Assembly (NCBI RefSeq): GCF_000214355.1
Contig: NC_015577.1
Coordinates: 186,001-250,000, forward strand
DNA length: 64,000 bases
Source of the DNA: Leadbettera azotonutricia ZAS-9
GTDB lineage: Bacteria > Spirochaetota > Spirochaetia > Treponematales > Breznakiellaceae
Direction of reading: 5' to 3'
Below the pieces are notes generated by a model. It did not search any database. It saw only the letters and a program-made list of their open reading frames with translations, and was not told the DNA's origin. Made by a program: the position numbers and the translations under genes. Positions 6,241 through 18,890 of this stretch are shown here, in pieces; position 1 is the stretch's first letter; every line of letters begins with the position of its first letter.

Positions 6241-6350
6241 CAGGGAACCCCGTTTTTAATATCTTGGGAATAGTATAGTTCGTTTCGAATGAAATCTCAA
6301 GGAGTTTGCGCTATTCTGCTTTTAGGGCCCGAAAAATGCAAAAAATTTCT

Positions 6351-6388
6351 GATCTATCAATCAATGATAGATCTACCATCCTATACTA
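6351..6388 (+). promoter_or_regulatory. Palindromic operator and -10 box of the LRR-AAA/WYL pair
   Basis: GATCTATCA (6351-6359) and TGATAGATC (6365-6373) form a perfect 9-bp inverted repeat with a 5-base centre, suited to a dimeric repressor. TATACT at 6383-6388 is a good -10 box, so the palindrome covers the -35 region; no good -35 hexamer is seen. The WYL regulator encoded second in the same unit is the obvious candidate to bind here. Transcription would start within a base or two of the chosen ATG at 6394, so the message may be leaderless. Confidence 0.55.
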
Positions 6389-6393
6389 TCAGC

Positions 6394-8463
6394 ATGAATA
6401 TAAACGAAGCGTTTGCGGACATAGAAAAGCGGATGAACGGCGTGGAAGAGCTCATGAAGTATTGCCGCAAATCCGGCGGCAAAGAACTGGATCTTTCCGG
6501 CAAAGATCTTGAAGAAATCCCTCCAGCTCTGGCCGACCTGAAGGGCCTTGTGGTGCTGGATCTCAGCAATAATAAGCTCAAAGAGCTTCCGGATTTCATG
6601 GGCAGCCTTGCTACCCTGGCATACCTGAACTTGAGCCATAATAGGCTGTGCACCCTGCCCGAGTCAATGGAGAGCCTTGACGATCTTGAGACCCTCAACC
6701 TTTCCCACAACCGGTTTAAAGAGCTGCCTAAATTTATCGGGGTACTTCCTGCTTTGGAAACCCTGAATATCGATGACAATAACCTGGAGGGAGTCCCGGA
6801 ATTTCTGGATGATTTAAACGTCGGCAAGGAACTCAACCTGCTGGATCATATCGAAAAAATCATAAATCTTTCGAAAAAGAACGGGCTGAGCAGGATTTTT
6901 TACCGCATTGCCGACAGCCATATCAAATTTGTTGCGGAAAAACTTGGCATAACACCCCTGCAGGCAGTATTGTTTTCCCATTTTATCGATAACTGCGAAG
7001 ACAATAATATATTGATAAGCCAAATCGGAAAGGCAATTGATGTCAGCAATACCAAAATTCTGCAATACATGAATGAACTTGAGGTGCTAGAAAAGAAAAA
7101 GCTCATCCGCTGCAAAAAAGGCGACAGCATCACCTACCGTGTGCCCCGTGAAGTGTTGACCGCCTTCAGGAAGGATACAGAATTCAAGCCCGCAAACCAC
7201 GCGAATATCCATATCGAGGAGTTTTTTACCGTCGTGGAGGATTTATTTGTCCAGCGGAACAATGATGAATTGACCCTCGAAAACCTGGACGAGGAATTGA
7301 ACCTCCTGCTGGAAGAGAACATGCAGCTTGTCTTTTCGCAAAAGATAAAAAACGCCGATTTTAATACAATGGACAGGGTCCTCTTGATCTGTTTCTGCCA
7401 TCACTTTGTGAACAACAACGATGACAATATCAGGGAGCATGATTTTGGATTTGTCTACAGTGACGACCGGTATTTTTTAAGCGAGATTAAGCGGGCCCTG
7501 AAAAACGGTAATCATATACTCATGGAAGCGGGACTGATCGAGAATGCCGTCAGCGATGGGTTTGCCGAATCGGATGCCTATAAGCTTACCGATAAAGCAA
7601 AAAAGGAATACCTTGGGGAACTGAATATCAAGTCCAATCTGAACAAGAACAAAAAAAACCTCCTGTTATCCGATACCCTTGCGGAAAAAAAATTATTTTA
7701 TAATGACAAAGCAACTCAAAGTATTGAGCAGCTGGCTTCTTTGCTGGAGGAAGAAAATTTCAAAACTGTGCAAAAACGCCTTGAAGACCAAGGCATGCGG
7801 AAAGGATTTACCTGCCTCTTCTATGGCCCTCCCGGCACAGGAAAGACCGAGACAGTGTACCAGATAGCCCGCCGGACCCACCGGGACATCATGGCAGTGG
7901 ACATCGCTGAAACAAAGAGCTGCTGGTTTGGTGAGAGCGAAAAGAAGATAAAGGAAATCTTCACCGGCTATAAAGCCCTGGCGGAAAATGCCGAAACAAC
8001 ACCTATCCTGCTCTTCAACGAAGCCGATGCGGTTATTAGCAAACGCATGGAGCTGGGCAAAAACAGCGGATCGGTTGCGCAAACCGAAAATGCCATACAG
8101 AATATCATCCTCCAGGAGCTGGAAAATCTCGATGGCATATTGATAGCCACCACCAACCTTACCGGGAACATGGATAAAGCCTTTGAGCGGCGCTTCCTCT
8201 ATAAAATTGAATTCGAAAAGCCCGACAATAACGCCAGGCAGGCTATTTGGAAGGCAATTATACCGGAATTATCCGATGCTGATGCAATGGAATTGGCCAC
8301 CAGGCATGATTTTTCCGGAGGGCAGATAGAAAATATTGCCCGCAAGCGCATTGTCAGCAGCATCATCACCGGAACAGCCCCTACCCTTGATTCGCTCATT
8401 TCTTTCTGTCAGGATGAAATAGTGTCCAACGAAAAGGAAAAGAAAATAGGGTTTTCAGTATAG
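6394..8463 (+). CDS. Leucine-rich-repeat, winged-helix, AAA+ ATPase fusion
   Basis: 689 residues from ATG at 6394; the frame is open back to 6289, but those codons precede the -10 box and lack a ribosome binding site. Residues about 30-140 are four to five bacterial leucine-rich repeats (LDLSNNKLKELP, LNLSHNRLCTLP, LNLSHNRFKELP). Residues about 155-260 look like a winged-helix segment (SQIGKAIDVSNTKILQYMNEL). The C-terminal part is an AAA+ module: Walker A GPPGTGKT at 479-486, Walker B ILLFNEAD near 538-545 (Asn replaces the usual Asp), sensor ATTN near 585 and Arg pair FERRF near 598. The layout, ligand-sensing repeats joined to an ATPase, recalls NLR-type sensors, though the ATPase is classic AAA rather than STAND. 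Coupled to the WYL regulator 2 bases downstream. Confidence 0.8.
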   Translation: MNINEAFADIEKRMNGVEELMKYCRKSGGKELDLSGKDLEEIPPALADLKGLVVLDLSNNKLKELPDFMGSLATLAYLNLSHNRLCTLPESMESLDDLETLNLSHNRFKELPKFIGVLPALETLNIDDNNLEGVPEFLDDLNVGKELNLLDHIEKIINLSKKNGLSRIFYRIADSHIKFVAEKLGITPLQAVLFSHFIDNCEDNNILISQIGKAIDVSNTKILQYMNELEVLEKKKLIRCKKGDSITYRVPREVLTAFRKDTEFKPANHANIHIEEFFTVVEDLFVQRNNDELTLENLDEELNLLLEENMQLVFSQKIKNADFNTMDRVLLICFCHHFVNNNDDNIREHDFGFVYSDDRYFLSEIKRALKNGNHILMEAGLIENAVSDGFAESDAYKLTDKAKKEYLGELNIKSNLNKNKKNLLLSDTLAEKKLFYNDKATQSIEQLASLLEEENFKTVQKRLEDQGMRKGFTCLFYGPPGTGKTETVYQIARRTHRDIMAVDIAETKSCWFGESEKKIKEIFTGYKALAENAETTPILLFNEADAVISKRMELGKNSGSVAQTENAIQNIILQELENLDGILIATTNLTGNMDKAFERRFLYKIEFEKPDNNARQAIWKAIIPELSDADAMELATRHDFSGGQIENIARKRIVSSIITGTAPTLDSLISFCQDEIVSNEKEKKIGFSV

Positions 8464-8465
8464 CC

Positions 8466-9461
8466 ATGAGTACCAGAAAGAATGCATCCAAACCGGCATT
8501 GGACAGGTTCTATCAAATTGATGAAGAGATCGCCTCGGGAAAATACCCCAGCGCCAGGAAGCTGGCGGAGACGATAGGGTTCAGCGAGGCTACGATTAAT
8601 CGGGATTTGGCTTTTATGCGGGACAGGCTTTATGCCCCCATTGAATACAGCGCCATTCACCGGGGCCTCTATTATTCGGAAAAGCCTTATCGCCTGCCCG
8701 GCGCGTTCACCTCCATGGAAGATATGCAGGCCCTGGGGATGGCGAAAAACCTGCTTTCCCTTTACCATGACACCCCTCTTTACGATGCAGCAAAGAACCT
8801 TCTGGATAGCTTTACCGCCCCCCTGGCAAGCGACAAGAACCCCGGCTGGTACGAAGACCGCATCATAGTTCCCCCGGTAGCGTCGGCCCCTGTTTCAGAG
8901 GAAACATGGAAGGTCATCACTGCGGGGCTCAAAGAAAACAAGGCCATCATCTTTGAGTATCAGGGCGCCTGGGACGAAGAATTCAAACCCCGCCGGGTGC
9001 GGCCTTATCAGCTCCTTTTTGATACAGGGGTATGGTATCTTTACGCTTATGCCGAAGAACGCAAAGCCATACGCATTTTTTCGCTCCCCAGGATAAAAAA
9101 CCCGGTGCTCACCAAGGACACTTTTACCCTTCCAAAGGATTTCGATTATTGTTCCAATGCAGACGGCAGCAATTTCGGGGTTTTTGCGGGGGAAAAGAAA
9201 TGCCGCTTCGCCATTGCGATTTATGGCGAATCGATCCCCTGGGTCCAGGAGCGGAAATGGGCTGCGGATCAGGCGACTAAAGAAACAGATGATGGGATCA
9301 TTATAAGCTTTACCAGCACCCAATACGGCAAGGTGCTGGAATGGGTGCTTTCCAAAGGCTGCAACGCAATGCCCCTTGGCCCAAATGAACTGGTGCAGGA
9401 CTGGAAAATTCATATCAATTTAATGAAAAAGATGGCAGGCAAATCAACAAACCCGCTCTAA
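8466..9461 (+). CDS. WYL-domain transcriptional regulator
   Basis: 331 residues. Residues about 10-60 are a helix-turn-helix (KLAETIGFSEATINRDLAFMRD); residues about 125-205 contain a WYL domain (WYLYAYAEERKAIRIFSLPRI), followed by a C-terminal WCX-like extension. WYL regulators such as CapW and BrxR repress phage-defence operons and respond to nucleotides or nucleic acid. The ATG lies 2 bases after the stop of the LRR-AAA gene, so the two form one unit, and the palindrome at 6351 is its likely site. A bidirectional terminator follows. Confidence 0.88.
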   Translation: MSTRKNASKPALDRFYQIDEEIASGKYPSARKLAETIGFSEATINRDLAFMRDRLYAPIEYSAIHRGLYYSEKPYRLPGAFTSMEDMQALGMAKNLLSLYHDTPLYDAAKNLLDSFTAPLASDKNPGWYEDRIIVPPVASAPVSEETWKVITAGLKENKAIIFEYQGAWDEEFKPRRVRPYQLLFDTGVWYLYAYAEERKAIRIFSLPRIKNPVLTKDTFTLPKDFDYCSNADGSNFGVFAGEKKCRFAIAIYGESIPWVQERKWAADQATKETDDGIIISFTSTQYGKVLEWVLSKGCNAMPLGPNELVQDWKIHINLMKKMAGKSTNPL

Positions 9462-9520: not shown

Positions 9521-9832
9521 TTATCGGACTTTTGAGAGGATCTCGGGGTTATTTGCTGCATAGTTCAGCACGTCCGCCATAATGCTCGTGTACCCTTTGC
9601 CCAGGCTCTTGTATTTTGCCACGTCATCCGGGGCAAGCCTGAGAGTTACCACCTGCCGTTTCTTTTTCTGGTCTCGCTCGGCTGCCATGTGTGCAAATTC
9701 TTTGAGGGCCTCCGGAGATAGCTCTGGGGCGGCTTCAAGGTTTATCGGATATTTTGCGGCTTCTTTTATCCGCCGTAAAGCTTCTTTAGGTGGCTTTTGT
9801 CCAGCCTTCCCCTTCGATTTGGTAATAGCCAT
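9521..9832 (-). CDS. brnA: BrnA-family antitoxin
   Basis: 103 residues from ATG at 9832 (MAITKSKGK); the frame extends to 9904 but that overlaps the toxin gene without gain. The basic N-terminal half is followed by the BrnA signature: KKRQVVTLRLAPDDVAKYKSLGKGYTS, a ribbon-helix-helix DNA-binding region. BrnA neutralises BrnT and represses the shared promoter. The gene begins 47 bases before the end of brnT, the usual toxin-first overlapping order. Confidence 0.88.
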   Translation of the reverse strand: MAITKSKGKAGQKPPKEALRRIKEAAKYPINLEAAPELSPEALKEFAHMAAERDQKKKRQVVTLRLAPDDVAKYKSLGKGYTSIMADVLNYAANNPEILSKVR

Positions 9833-10103
9833 TGTATGACCTCCGTTCTTTTTTGGTAGCAATACGAGCGGTAATAATCCGTTTTGCATTGCCCCTTTCG
9901 GCATAAACTACAAAAAGCGTTTTACCCACCATGCCCAGGGTTTGCCAGCGTTCTTCCCCTGAGGTATTGCCCTCGCTTTTATCCTCGCGCTCTAAACGGT
10001 TTCCATCCCAGAAGATATATTGAGCATCTTCAAAATCGACATGATGAAGACGCTTATTTGTTGCGTTCTTTTCATCATCCCAGTCTATGCCGTCTAGTCG
10101 CAT
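9786..10103 (-). CDS. brnT: BrnT-family ribonuclease toxin
   Basis: 105 residues from ATG at 10103. Diagnostic pieces are IDWDDEKNATNKRLHHVDFEDA at the N-terminus, GEERWQTLGMVGKTLFVVYAE in the middle and RIITARIATKKERRSYNGYY, the region with the catalytic Arg residues of the RelE-like BrnT fold. BrnT cleaves RNA when released from BrnA. It is the first gene of the pair and has its own consensus promoter at 10110-10138. The C-terminal 15 residues overlap the antitoxin gene. It appears intact. Confidence 0.88.
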   Translation of the reverse strand: MRLDGIDWDDEKNATNKRLHHVDFEDAQYIFWDGNRLEREDKSEGNTSGEERWQTLGMVGKTLFVVYAERGNAKRIITARIATKKERRSYNGYYQIEGEGWTKAT

Positions 10104-10342: not shown

Positions 10343-10415
10343 TAGCAGGAGTAGGACTCGAACCTACGACCTCCGGGTTATGAGCCCGACGAGCTGCCAA
10401 CTGCTCTATCCTGCG
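10343..10415 (-). tRNA. Initiator tRNA-fMet (CAT anticodon)
   Basis: The minus strand folds as a full cloverleaf: acceptor CGCAGGA/TCCTGCT, D stem GAGC/GCTC, anticodon stem GTCGGG-CTCATAA-CCCGG with the three G-C pairs that mark initiators, and T arm GTAGG-TTCGAGT-CCTAC. Position 1 is C and position 72 is T, so the first pair cannot form, another initiator hallmark (C-A in E. coli). CCA is not encoded. Confidence 0.93.
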
Positions 10416-15059: not shown

Positions 15060-18000
15060 ATGAAAATTGCCAGCAAATTTCTTTTAGCGGCCCCGATGCT
15101 GCTCCTGCTCTGCTTTGCCGGATGCGAAAACCCTTTTACGCAGAAACCATTTGTCCTGGAATCCTCAAGCCAAGGGTATGTTGCGGTACACTTTGAAACC
15201 CCCCAGGAAGTTTATGGGGAAAACACCGGCGAAGGCAAAGAACGCACCCTTTACCCCGAATTATCCGCATTTACCAAATACGAGCTGAGCTTCAGCAACG
15301 GCCCGGAAGCCCGGCCCCCGTTTACCGTACAGCCTGGCGGCAATAGTGTCATTGAGCTTGCAGTGGGCAGCTGGACGATTACCGCTATTGCCTATAGCGG
15401 CTCCGAAGGCTCCTACACCGAAGCCGCCCGGGGAAGCGCATCGCCTGTAACCATAAGCATTGGCCAAACCGCCACCGCGGACATTGCCCTTATCCCCTCC
15501 GCCGGAGGCATAGGCTTTTTTAACTACACTGTCGATCTGCCTCCCGGCGCGGCGGGAAACCTTGTTGTTGCCACCCCGGAAGGGGGAAGCGTAAACGGCG
15601 GAAACATACCCCTGGATAACTCCGCTGTTAACGGAACCTTAAATTTGCTTTCTGGCCAGTACATCATGAGCCTGACCCTGGCATTGGACGGGAAACGCAG
15701 CGGCAGAACCGAGATTCTCCATGTGTACCCCAATCTGACCAGCCGGGCGGCGTACGCTTTTTCCGAATTCGACTTCCGGGCGGTAATGGATTTAACCCAT
15801 AACACCTGGATCCCCAGGATTTTAGTAAACCCCGGCGACACCCAGTGGTATGCATTCAACGCCGAAGCGGGCAAAACCTACCAGATACAGTGGAACGACG
15901 CCGTTCAGGGCGACGCCTCCAAAAGCCTGGATATAGAAGTTTCCGCAGTAAGGGGCGACGGCACGGCCATTTTTACAAACCGCGACAGCGGGTGGAATTC
16001 GCCGGAAACGATTTCCGGCCTTTCTGGCCCGGTATACATAGCGGTCCAGGGGAAAAGCGGCAGCTCAACGGGAACATACGCCATAAAGTACTATGATACG
16101 GATGCAGTGGTTCCCCAGGGGATCATGGCCATCGGCTCGGTGAATACGTCCCTCATACCGGCGGCCATTATTTCGTGGAACTCTGTGGAAGAAGTGAGCG
16201 CGTACCGCCTTTACCGCGCGCTCCTGAGCGGCGGCCCCTATACCAAAATCGCCGACCAAAGTTCCACGGTTTTTACCGACGAAAATGTCATGGGGAATAT
16301 TACCTATTATTACAAGGCTGCCGCGTACAACGCCAACGGAGAAGGAGAGCTATCCCCGGCGGCGTCCGGCACCATGCCCGCTTCGCATCCAGCGGCTATA
16401 ACAGCCCTTGCAAACAATGCCTGGACGGGGGGAACCATAGGCGCGGCGGGCGTTGTCGGCTGGTATAAGTTTACCGCCGAAAGCGCCAAGACTTATTATA
16501 TCCAGTGGAACGACGCCGTTCAGGGTGACGCCTCCAAAAGCCTGGACATAAAAGTTAGCGCCTATTCCGCCGCTGGGGACGTGCTCTTTGAAAACGAAGA
16601 CAGCGCCTGGATGGTTCCGAAGACCATTTCCGGCCTGAACGGGATGGTCTACCTTAAAGCCGCAGCCCAGAACGGCAGTAATACAGGAAGCTACAGCATC
16701 AGGCAGCATGATCTTGATAATTCGATTGAGCAGATTCCTGAAAATGTAACTGTCAGTGCAGGAAGTGAACAACTTACAGTAAGCTGGACAGGGATATCCG
16801 AAGCTGATAATTATGATATTTACTACACGAACGATACAAATATGCCGACATCGCCATCGTTAACGGTAACAGATCCTTCCGTCGTAATCACCGGACTTAC
16901 TAACGGAATAACGTACAGCATCTGGGTAAAGGCAAGAAACGCGACAAGTGCAAGTAACGCGAGTTCTGTTGCAACCGGCAAACCCATTGGAACCATGGGA
17001 GCAGTTACGGTGAGTCCCGGGGATGGACAGCTGAATTTATCCTGGGCCGCTGTTGCGGGGGCCGATGAGTACGAGGTTTATTATGATACCACCCCGGTTT
17101 GCCCGGAAAGTCCGGCACAGACAGTTACCGTTCCGACAGCGCTTATTGACGGCCTAACCAACGGTATAGTGTATTATGCGTGGGTGAGGGGTAAAAACTC
17201 AAACGGAAGCGGTACAAGCGAAATGGTTACCGGGAAGCCCTTGGGGACACCGGGAACACTTACCATAAACGATACCGGAATAAGCCAGCTTACAATTACC
17301 TGGGGTGTAGTTTCTGGCGCCGATGAATATGAAGTTTATTACGGAACAGGTACGCCAACAACCCTTTGGAATACTGTAAGCGGTACTGCTGTAACAATTA
17401 CCGGGCTTACCAATGGTATAAGCTATACAGTACAGATACGGGCAAGAAACACCACAGGGGTTTCAGTTTTCAGCCCAACAGCAGCAGGAACCCCGTCAAT
17501 ACGGCCGGGATTGTTTGACGGAACTATAGACGGCGCTTTTTACATCGGTCCCCATACGATAGCATTATCCGCATCGTATCTTTCCGCAAACGCAGTCAAC
17601 GGTCATGATTACCTGATAATAATAGGAGAGGATGAATCCCTTGCGCCTCTTACCCTATCGTATCCGGATAAAACCATCGGCATTGCACTTATGGGACTTG
17701 GAGACGAGCGAACTATTTCCTTAAATGCAAACGGCAGTATGTTTACGGTTTCCCAGGGAGTTACCCTTACTTTAAAGGATAATCTTGTTCTTGCAGGACG
17801 AACAGCAAACAATGCTTCTCTTATACGAATTAATGATAGCGGCAGCTTTACCATGGAAGGGGGGACCATCAGCGGGAATACCTCCTCCTCCTACAGCAGC
17901 GGCGGCGGCGTGTATGTTTCTAGCGGCAGCTTTACCATGGAAGGGGGAACCATCAGCGGGAATACCTCCTCCTCCTACAGCAGCGGCGGCGGCGTGTATG

Positions 18001-18890
18001 TTTCTAGCGGCAGCTTTACCATGGAAGGGGGGACCATCAGCGGGAATACCTCCTCCTACGGCGACGGCAGCGGCGTATATGTTTTTAGCGGCAGCTTTAC
18101 CATGGAAGGGGGGACCATCAGCGGGAATAAATCATCATCATCTTCTTCTTACGGCGGCGGCGTGTATGTTGATTCTAGCGGCAGCTTTACCATGGAAGGG
18201 GGGACCATCAGCGGGAATACCTCCTCCTACGGCGGCGGCGTGTATGTTTATTCTAGCAGCAGCTTTACCATGAAAGAAGGCAGCATCAGCGGGAATACCT
18301 CCTCCTCCTACGGCGGCGGCGTGTATGTTGGTTCTAGCGGCAGCTTTACCATGGAAGGGGGGACCATCAGCGGGAATACCTCCTCCTCCTACGGCGGCGG
18401 CGTGTATGTTGGTTCTAGCGGCAGCTTTACCATGGAAGGGGGGACCATCAGCGGGAATACCTCCTCCTCCTACGGCGGCGGCGTGTATGTTTCTAGCGGC
18501 AGCTTTACCATGAAAGAAGGAAGCATCAGCGGGAATTCCGCCTCCTCCTCCTACAGCAGCGGCGGCGGCGTGTATGTTTATTCCAGCGGCAGCTTTACCA
18601 TGGAAGGGGGAACCATCAGTGGAAATTCTGCCTCCTCCTCCTCCTCCTCCAACGGCGGCGGCGGCGTGTATGTTTATTCTAGCGGCAGCTTTATCAAGAG
18701 CGGCCCCTCGGTAATCTATGGTGATACCGACACAACCCATACCGCTGGAGCTAATGAAAACACTGCATTAAATGGGCGTGGCCATGCGGTTTATTGGAGT
18801 GCAAGTCCCAAACAGCGTCAATCCACTTTGGAGGCGAATGTAGATCTAAGCACCAACCCAGCGGATGCCGGGTATGCCAATTGGGATTAG
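15060..18890 (+). CDS. Large adhesin-like lipoprotein A (Fn3 and beta-helix repeats)
   Basis: 1276 residues. Signal ends L-C-F-A-G-C-E-N-P-F. Order: beta-rich region (about 40-230), pre-peptidase-like module (about 240-335, W-Y-A-F-N-A-E-A-G-K-T-Y), Fn3 (about 345-430), second such module (about 435-540), three Fn3 domains (about 545-820), a beta domain (820-920), ten copies of a 27-30 residue repeat centred on F-T-M-E-G-G-T-I-S-G-N...G-G-G-V-Y-V (about 925-1208), and a conserved tail ending in N-W-D. The G-G-T-I-S-G-N repeats match the coils of right-handed beta-helices, as in chlamydial Pmp adhesins, and suggest surface binding. Third gene of its cluster; paralogue of the protein at 22027. 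Confidence 0.85.
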   Translation: MKIASKFLLAAPMLLLLCFAGCENPFTQKPFVLESSSQGYVAVHFETPQEVYGENTGEGKERTLYPELSAFTKYELSFSNGPEARPPFTVQPGGNSVIELAVGSWTITAIAYSGSEGSYTEAARGSASPVTISIGQTATADIALIPSAGGIGFFNYTVDLPPGAAGNLVVATPEGGSVNGGNIPLDNSAVNGTLNLLSGQYIMSLTLALDGKRSGRTEILHVYPNLTSRAAYAFSEFDFRAVMDLTHNTWIPRILVNPGDTQWYAFNAEAGKTYQIQWNDAVQGDASKSLDIEVSAVRGDGTAIFTNRDSGWNSPETISGLSGPVYIAVQGKSGSSTGTYAIKYYDTDAVVPQGIMAIGSVNTSLIPAAIISWNSVEEVSAYRLYRALLSGGPYTKIADQSSTVFTDENVMGNITYYYKAAAYNANGEGELSPAASGTMPASHPAAITALANNAWTGGTIGAAGVVGWYKFTAESAKTYYIQWNDAVQGDASKSLDIKVSAYSAAGDVLFENEDSAWMVPKTISGLNGMVYLKAAAQNGSNTGSYSIRQHDLDNSIEQIPENVTVSAGSEQLTVSWTGISEADNYDIYYTNDTNMPTSPSLTVTDPSVVITGLTNGITYSIWVKARNATSASNASSVATGKPIGTMGAVTVSPGDGQLNLSWAAVAGADEYEVYYDTTPVCPESPAQTVTVPTALIDGLTNGIVYYAWVRGKNSNGSGTSEMVTGKPLGTPGTLTINDTGISQLTITWGVVSGADEYEVYYGTGTPTTLWNTVSGTAVTITGLTNGISYTVQIRARNTTGVSVFSPTAAGTPSIRPGLFDGTIDGAFYIGPHTIALSASYLSANAVNGHDYLIIIGEDESLAPLTLSYPDKTIGIALMGLGDERTISLNANGSMFTVSQGVTLTLKDNLVLAGRTANNASLIRINDSGSFTMEGGTISGNTSSSYSSGGGVYVSSGSFTMEGGTISGNTSSSYSSGGGVYVSSGSFTMEGGTISGNTSSYGDGSGVYVFSGSFTMEGGTISGNKSSSSSSYGGGVYVDSSGSFTMEGGTISGNTSSYGGGVYVYSSSSFTMKEGSISGNTSSSYGGGVYVGSSGSFTMEGGTISGNTSSSYGGGVYVGSSGSFTMEGGTISGNTSSSYGGGVYVSSGSFTMKEGSISGNSASSSYSSGGGVYVYSSGSFTMEGGTISGNSASSSSSSNGGGGVYVYSSGSFIKSGPSVIYGDTDTTHTAGANENTALNGRGHAVYWSASPKQRQSTLEANVDLSTNPADAGYANWD
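17841..18682 (+). repeat. Ten in-frame 84-base beta-helix repeats, adhesin A
   Basis: Ten units of about 84 bases each begin GGCAGCTTTACCATG and end in GTGTATGTT. Units differ mainly in a serine linker coded by runs of TCC (six in a row at 18633-18650), so unit number and linker length could change without loss of frame. Confidence 0.9.

Follow-up and report, generated by a model that had tools for sequence, protein, structure and literature searches.

The WYL-domain transcription regulators that come closest to the one considered here are of two kinds. The activators are represented by DriD, which binds a 20-bp pseudopalindrome that overlaps the -35 position at one distance from the -10 box, is activated by single-stranded DNA (ssDNA) in its WYL domain, and serves promoters whose few conserved bases include G-14 of the extended -10 (PMC12340889); by SiwR, which activates from a 19-bp palindrome located between -35 and -10 (PMC10693628); and by PafBC, whose ssDNA-dependent activation proceeds by sigma adaptation (PMC11804915). 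BrxR and CapW are repressors, whose sites overlap the -10 box or lie downstream of it (PMC9122601, PMC9122588). The present work concerns a two-gene operon of the termite-gut spirochaete Leadbettera (Treponema) azotonutricia ZAS-9 which encodes an AAA ATPase with leucine-rich repeats (LRRs) and a WYL regulator, and which lies behind a palindromic operator in a 64,000-nucleotide (nt) stretch, referred to here as the window, of the closed genome of 3,855,671 bp. The organism is the sole representative of its genus in the set of 200 Breznakiellaceae genomes used for comparison.

A first-pass annotation, made from the sequence of the window alone, had put the two coupled genes forward as an undescribed system and had likened the ATPase to NLR immune receptors. 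The analysis presented here indicates that the pair belongs to an inducible network of WYL-regulated genes which has apparently not been described before, and is not a bacterial copy of an NLR. No description of the AAA family, the operator or the regulon was found in the open-access journal literature; what appears to be undescribed is a wider WYL regulon rather than an isolated two-gene system. MoxR-vWA conflict systems have been described by Kaur et al. 2020 (PMC7159879), and a term search of that paper did not find the present AAA family.

The promoter cassette

The operon consists of two open reading frames (ORFs), at 6289-8463 (+) and 8466-9461 (+), with 2 nt between them. The predicted start of the ATPase gene is the ATG at 6394, which corrects 6289, because the frame from 6289 would cross the operator and because the resulting operator-to-ATG distance of 22 nt equals the family norm of 21-22 nt; the gene so defined (6394..8463, +; 689 amino acids, aa) is supported by the ORF, by Pfam, by an AlphaFold2 model and by this operator spacing. 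The second gene (8466..9461, +; 331 aa) encodes the helix-turn-helix (HTH)-WYL regulator. The operator is the perfect inverted repeat GATCTATCA-ATCAA-TGATAGATC at 6351-6373 (arms of 9+9, 5-nt spacer, core at 6353-6371), which, when no mismatch is allowed, has no second copy anywhere in the genome of 3.86 Mb. Inverted repeats of 9+9 with spacers of 3-8 nt are found in 4 of the 1278 100-bp tiles of the window.

The core that is shared across the operator family is TCTATCA-N5-TGATAGA (TGAYAGA in relatives), for which the reversed pattern was used as the control. The exact 14-base core occurs at 24 sites in 16 of the 200 Breznakiellaceae genomes, with no control match, and for 10 of the 24 sites a WYL homologue is encoded no more than 5 kb away, compared to an expected 0.04. 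Among loci fetched by protein homology alone, genes with an operator (at most 2 mismatches) at their start number 16 of 35 for WYL, 13 of 74 for AAA and 27 of 691 for all others. Alignment of the upstream regions reveals a cassette made up of the operator, a gap of 9-10 nt, a TAYANT -10 box which is often extended (TGnTATAcT), a further 6-7 nt, and the start codon. The gap is 9 nt in 26 and 10 nt in 15 of 41 promoters, and away from these two spacings the frequency of TAYANT is about that of shuffled sequence, roughly 0.9 per position. The combination of operator and -10 box occurs at 23 sites in 18 of the 200 genomes (control 0), and a WYL homologue is encoded by 15 of these 18, as against 55 of the 200 overall (Fisher p = 3e-7). 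In a sample of 393 Spirochaetota genomes the cassette was detected at 21 sites in 14 genomes, all of class Spirochaetia, again with no control match. Within the family and elsewhere in the class, it stands mostly ahead of WYL homologues and AAA or LRR genes. WYL homologues are led by it also in other families and in members of the Treponematales that do not belong to the Breznakiellaceae, and one genome (L270) has the cassette in the space that separates an AAA gene from a WYL gene.

If the -10 hexamer is set as -12 to -7, the operator extends from about -40 to about -22 with its centre at -31 or -32, which is the place of the -35 box. There is no -35 box; a -35 consensus at this position is ruled out because the 5-nt spacer of the operator is variable. 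The cassette thus shares with DriD promoters a palindrome that lies over -35 at a fixed distance from -10. In the window, the -10 box TATACT (6382..6387, +), assigned from its position relative to the operator and from the family geometry, begins 10 nt past the operator core and ends 6 nt before the ATG, with no Shine-Dalgarno sequence, and the transcript of the operon is probably leaderless, as is to be expected where only 6-7 nt separate the -10 box from the start codon. The exactness of the repeat, its conservation across genera and its fixed place before the -10 box bear out the first-pass view of the palindrome as an operator-like element. A chance palindrome is ruled out by the recurrence across genera and the zero matches of the reversed control, and an RNA hairpin is unlikely because many sites read TCTATCA...TGACAGA, which mispairs.

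The regulator and its partners

The regulator matches the WYL family of Pfam (PF13280, 2.2e-15; WYL domain at residues 147-212) and, weakly, an HTH family (HTH_50, 0.0012), and together with the predicted palindromic operator these domains identify it as a WYL regulator. Its nearest relatives of solved structure are PafBC, the closest (5.5e-9), and 7tb5, a weak match (6.8e-6). It resembles DriD, SiwR and PafBC as an HTH-WYL protein, and DriD and SiwR further in the palindrome of about 19-20 bp, which lies over the -35 position and keeps a constant spacing to the -10 box; it differs from all three in that its promoters are predicted to be leaderless and that, in place of repair genes, its cargo consists of conflict and repeat proteins encoded in islands. 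An inverted repeat with a 5-bp spacer (in the case of BrxR), likely autoregulation and defence-type neighbours are shared with BrxR and CapW, from which the regulator is set apart by the position of the operator, by weak sequence similarity (7tb5, 6.8e-6), and by the presence of many scattered operators rather than one or two.

The association with AAA genes is not confined to the window. Of 106 AAA genes, 14 have a WYL homologue no more than 5 kb away, against an expectation of 0.2, and the linkage extends beyond the spirochaetes to plasmids of Bacteroidota and Campylobacterota. The AAA gene of a Segatella hominis plasmid lies near WYL, PD-(D/E)XK and 3'-5' exonuclease genes; on a Chryseobacterium plasmid the neighbours are WYL, an exonuclease, two DUF262 proteins and LeoA, and on an Aliarcobacter plasmid a WYL gene, the proteins of these last two plasmids having only the AAA part in common with the family. 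When the pairing was sought in other genomes, as the first-pass annotation had advised, the AAA-WYL linkage was found to recur, but the exact combination of an LRR-AAA gene with a WYL gene was found in this locus only.

Structure of the ATPase

The ATPase matches LRR_8 (7.7e-15) and AAA (PF00004, 7.3e-23) in Pfam, and was modelled with AlphaFold2 from a 42-sequence alignment (mean pLDDT 86.5), with a separate model of the core. The chain begins with leucine-rich repeats, five strands at 23-residue intervals (residues 30-145; 6481..6828, +; Pfam and AlphaFold2), for which the model shows a solenoid at residues 30-125. In both the full and the core model these are followed by a predicted winged-helix domain (residues about 174-250; 6913..7143, +) and a second, winged-helix-like domain (residues about 313-398; 7330..7587, +), and the chain ends in a classical AAA module (residues 438-683; 7705..8442, +; PF00004 and fold comparison). 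The description of the locus as two coupled genes, an LRR-winged helix-AAA ATPase and a WYL regulator, is upheld by these data, with the refinement that the predicted winged helices are two in tandem.

Walker A is GPPGTGKT (residues 478-485; 7825..7848, +), with G478, G481, T482, G483 and K484 invariant in the homologues. Walker B reads ILLFNEAD (8005..8028, +) and has Asn542 in place of the usual Asp of the hhhhDE pattern. Since Asn542 is unchanged, along with the catalytic Glu543, in all 42 homologues aligned, the Asp-to-Asn change is ordinary for the family, which was one of the two explanations that had been offered for it. Walker A, the sensor-1 residue Asn588, Arg599/Arg600 and the pore-loop aromatic are invariant or nearly so in the same homologues, as befits a classical AAA protein, and the pore-loop region K-S-C-W511-F512-G-E-S-E-K is kept in the family. 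We take W511-F512 to be a pore loop of the Vps4 kind. The nearest folds to the predicted AAA module are PAN, the 26S proteasome ATPases, FtsH, spastin and Vps4 (Z about 21), in agreement with Foldseek, and TRIP13 of a CBASS system is also among the neighbours. By its motifs and its predicted fold the ATPase is a classical AAA protein of Vps4/PAN type and not a STAND protein. With Vps4, spastin, PAN, FtsH and TRIP13 it shares the AAA fold, Walker A, the sensor-1 Asn, two Arg fingers and the aromatic pore loop; the family-wide Walker-B Asn and the N-terminal LRR and tandem winged helices distinguish it from them.

Among defence proteins, the nearest PADLOC and NCBIfam match to the AAA region is IetA of the anti-phage system IetAS (8.4e-29 and 8.5e-27, respectively), but the score of 94.2 bits lies below the NCBIfam cut-off of 510, so the protein does not qualify as an equivalog; its N-terminal domains are different, and no subtilisin-like IetS is present beside the ATPase gene among its neighbours in the window. 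The bNACHT, CARD-NLR and Avs proteins likewise combine a repeat domain and an NTPase in one chain, but differ in NTPase clade and domain order, and the present protein has no effector domain.

The LRR as an optional domain

The AAA family is present in 76 of the 200 Breznakiellaceae genomes, often in multiple copies, and its usual form is about 550 aa long and lacks the LRR. It occurs also in Bacteroidales, in one Gastranaerophilales genome and on Bacteroidota plasmids. This distribution, and the defence-like company that relatives keep, agree with the earlier suggestion that the pair is accessory and not core. LRR-fused forms are found in several genera, although most homologues lack the LRR; on the AAA tree the presence of the LRR requires five changes by parsimony, and no fewer than two gains or losses follow from the supported branches alone, so a single origin of the fusion is not supported. 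The LRR is, as far as the sequences indicate, an optional add-on in the family. The genome of L. azotonutricia itself encodes a second family member (396207-397838), without LRR and without an adjoining WYL gene.

Other departures from the usual form were observed. In a 346-aa homologue (L124:9154-10194), which has an operator 22 nt upstream, the winged helices are replaced by an N-terminal segment that is hydrophobic and transmembrane-like. Two AAA gene copies in one genome (L140/L141, G002) adjoin ParA- and ParB-like genes and have a gene of the DUF4116 cluster upstream, neighbours that suggest a mobile element. Relatives of the AAA core with 28-69% identity are encoded on 12 IMG/VR contigs (L215-L226), for which a viral nature is a candidate only. 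No WYL homologue was detected beside them at the threshold used, and no relative of the WYL protein was found in IMG/VR, which leaves phage-borne copies of the pair without support. On one further IMG/VR contig, which carries phage-like genes but neither WYL nor AAA, a sequence resembling the cassette was matched, and this match is probably due to chance.

Operator-led islands

Operators are clustered in a number of genomes, with six in 12 kb (G143), five in 10 kb (G507), four in 8.5 kb (G488) and further clusters in G147, G151 and G197. The proteins of these islands, which were chosen by eye, include defence-type products (a full GmrSD, three LeoA-matching dynamin-like GTPases, a PD-(D/E)XK protein matching PDC-S26, an SduA-like C-terminal domain, and HEPN, which has an MNT-like neighbour), as well as DEDDh exonucleases, endonuclease/exonuclease/phosphatase proteins, tyrosine phosphatases, LRR, TPR and DUF4116 repeat proteins, LRAT, and FlhA and FliG look-alikes. 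No recognisable repair genes were found among the scanned cargo.

LRR proteins without AAA occur behind the cassette or in a cassette-led operon (L208:1909-4918, L276:4242-4895, L084:138-1550), which gives the impression that LRR and AAA are cargo that can be exchanged or fused. The cassette also precedes the gene of a different AAA protein (L227:79-1524), whose N-terminus matches BCS1. The flagellar look-alikes comprise a full FHIPEP (FlhA) protein (L193:6724-8757) and a FliG_C protein (L195:17780-18928) in WYL islands, and a shorter FHIPEP protein immediately after an operator cassette (L013:940-1755); two more island genes begin with FliM-like 'LTQ(E/Q)E(I/V)D' motifs, seen by eye and without a Pfam match.

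Regulatory sign and function

It is somewhat probable that the operon is WYL-activated, the regulator inducing both itself and a protein-threading LRR-AAA ATPase against invading DNA or the damage that results from it. The WYL protein, presumably as a homodimer, would bind the 19-23 bp operator in place of a -35 box, 9-10 nt from the -10 box; its WYL domain would take up a signal, which is ssDNA in the best-studied WYL activators, and RNA polymerase would be recruited to the -35-less promoter. Leaderless mRNA would then start, giving positive autoregulation of the WYL gene and co-induction of the LRR-AAA gene. The ATPase would form an AAA ring, presumably a hexamer, that threads or remodels proteins by means of pore-loop W511-F512 and arginine fingers R599/R600, with the LRR and winged-helix domains selecting the protein target, and the purpose may be an induced response to a phage or plasmid or to damage from it. 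The regulatory half of this proposal is well supported by the operon, the operator, the promoter geometry, the AAA-WYL linkage and their conservation; from the gene company and the kind of regulator we infer the regulated function, including any role against phages.

The same regulon could instead operate with the opposite sign, the WYL protein being a repressor of BrxR/CapW type which blocks the promoter until it is released by a ligand made in infection. The operator layout is that of BrxR, whose 11-bp inverted repeat has a 5-bp spacer (PMC9122601), CapW represses until infection from 19-24 bp palindromes that overlap the -10 box (PMC9122588), and the extended -10 of many cassettes could function without a -35 box. 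The near-invariant gap of 9-10 nt and the site over an absent -35 box are nevertheless what would be expected of an activator that touches polymerase, as DriD and SiwR do, and the sites of BrxR and CapW sit elsewhere. Because DriD, SiwR and PafBC activate and the site geometry of the first two is alike, activation appears distinctly the likelier sign, and repression a serious but lesser possibility. Whatever its sign, the regulon might respond to DNA damage or stress in the Spirochaetia generally rather than to phages, with the LRR-AAA protein as a quality-control unfoldase: PafBC, DriD and SiwR respond to DNA damage or genotoxic stress, and many genes of the regulon lie outside defence families. 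The patchy, multi-copy, island- and plasmid-borne distribution, and cargo of defence type without recognisable repair genes, weigh against this reading, a lesser possibility of about the same standing as repression.

Two further alternatives concern the ATPase. The tandem winged helices of the model could make it a transcription factor or a DNA-remodelling ATPase, but winged helices mediate protein contacts too, and the AAA module falls among AAA proteins that thread proteins, not among DNA-acting clades, so that such a role is improbable. An NLR-like receptor, in which the LRR senses an invader and the NTPase oligomerises as a signalling switch, is suggested by the union of an LRR with a P-loop NTPase in a single chain, and was the comparison drawn by the first-pass annotation. 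It fails as homology because the ATPase is of Vps4/PAN type and not STAND: no STAND, NACHT or NB-ARC model of Pfam matches it at E 0.01, it has the pore loop and arginine fingers of a classical AAA, and, where NLRs have an N-terminal effector domain and C-terminal repeats, its repeats are N-terminal and dispensable in the family and an effector domain is absent. As a description of the mechanism, too, it is very improbable.

Several observations weigh against the proposal of a WYL-activated operon directed at invading DNA. The nearest LRR-AAA relatives (55-59% identical) have neither an adjoining WYL gene nor an operator, and the majority of AAA homologues have no adjoining WYL gene, many standing alone amid housekeeping genes. 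The cassette of the window is not the most typical, with its 10-nt gap and no TGn before TATACT. Its genome contains one true operator, and the three 1-mismatch sites head no gene at the usual spacing, so a wider regulon is rejected there and the regulon in this organism is the operon itself. Much of the regulon elsewhere (TPR, DUF4116, LRAT, flagellar look-alikes) falls outside known defence, and in a less selected set PADLOC matches, some of them generic, were obtained for 6 of 20 operator-led or neighbouring genes versus 1 of 10 controls; given this modest yield and the selection of island proteins by eye, the presence of known defence families among the direct targets is suggestive, not proven.

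A broader interpretation, plausible but held more tentatively than WYL activation of the operon, is that the Spirochaetia possess a dedicated WYL-activated immune regulon in which a portable cassette of 19-bp operator, -10 box and leaderless start tags exchangeable island genes, including AAA machines with swapped recognition domains (LRR, winged helix, transmembrane), and of which the window would hold a minimal one-operon version with the LRR fused to the AAA. The cassette offers a sequence handle, in that scans for it list candidate induced defence genes, some from families without known function; phage defence has been little studied in the Spirochaetota. Its geometry predicts activation for a WYL regulator tied to defence-like genes, where BrxR and CapW are repressors, and the LRR-AAA fusion would be an unusual means to equip a protein-threading motor with a target-recognition solenoid.

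Surroundings of the operon

The operon is followed by a BrnTA toxin-antitoxin system, recognised from its tandem BrnT and BrnA domains, which is a neighbour outside the system. The convergent gene for the antitoxin BrnA (9521..9832, -; PF14384, 9.9e-9) ends 59 bp from the WYL gene, and the toxin BrnT is encoded at 9786..10103 (-; PF04365, 4.6e-24). Beyond them lies a tRNA-Met(CAT) gene (10343-10415, -), whose anticodon stem CGGGCTCATAACCCG, read from the sequence, is initiator-like; the first-pass annotation had correctly placed a toxin-antitoxin system about 60 bases away and an initiator tRNA nearby. A histidine kinase and a sugar-binding protein are encoded by other genes around the pair. 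Elsewhere in the window, a large ORF of 1276 aa (15060-18890) combines stretches that resemble fibronectin with SFTMEGGTISGN repeats arranged in tandem.

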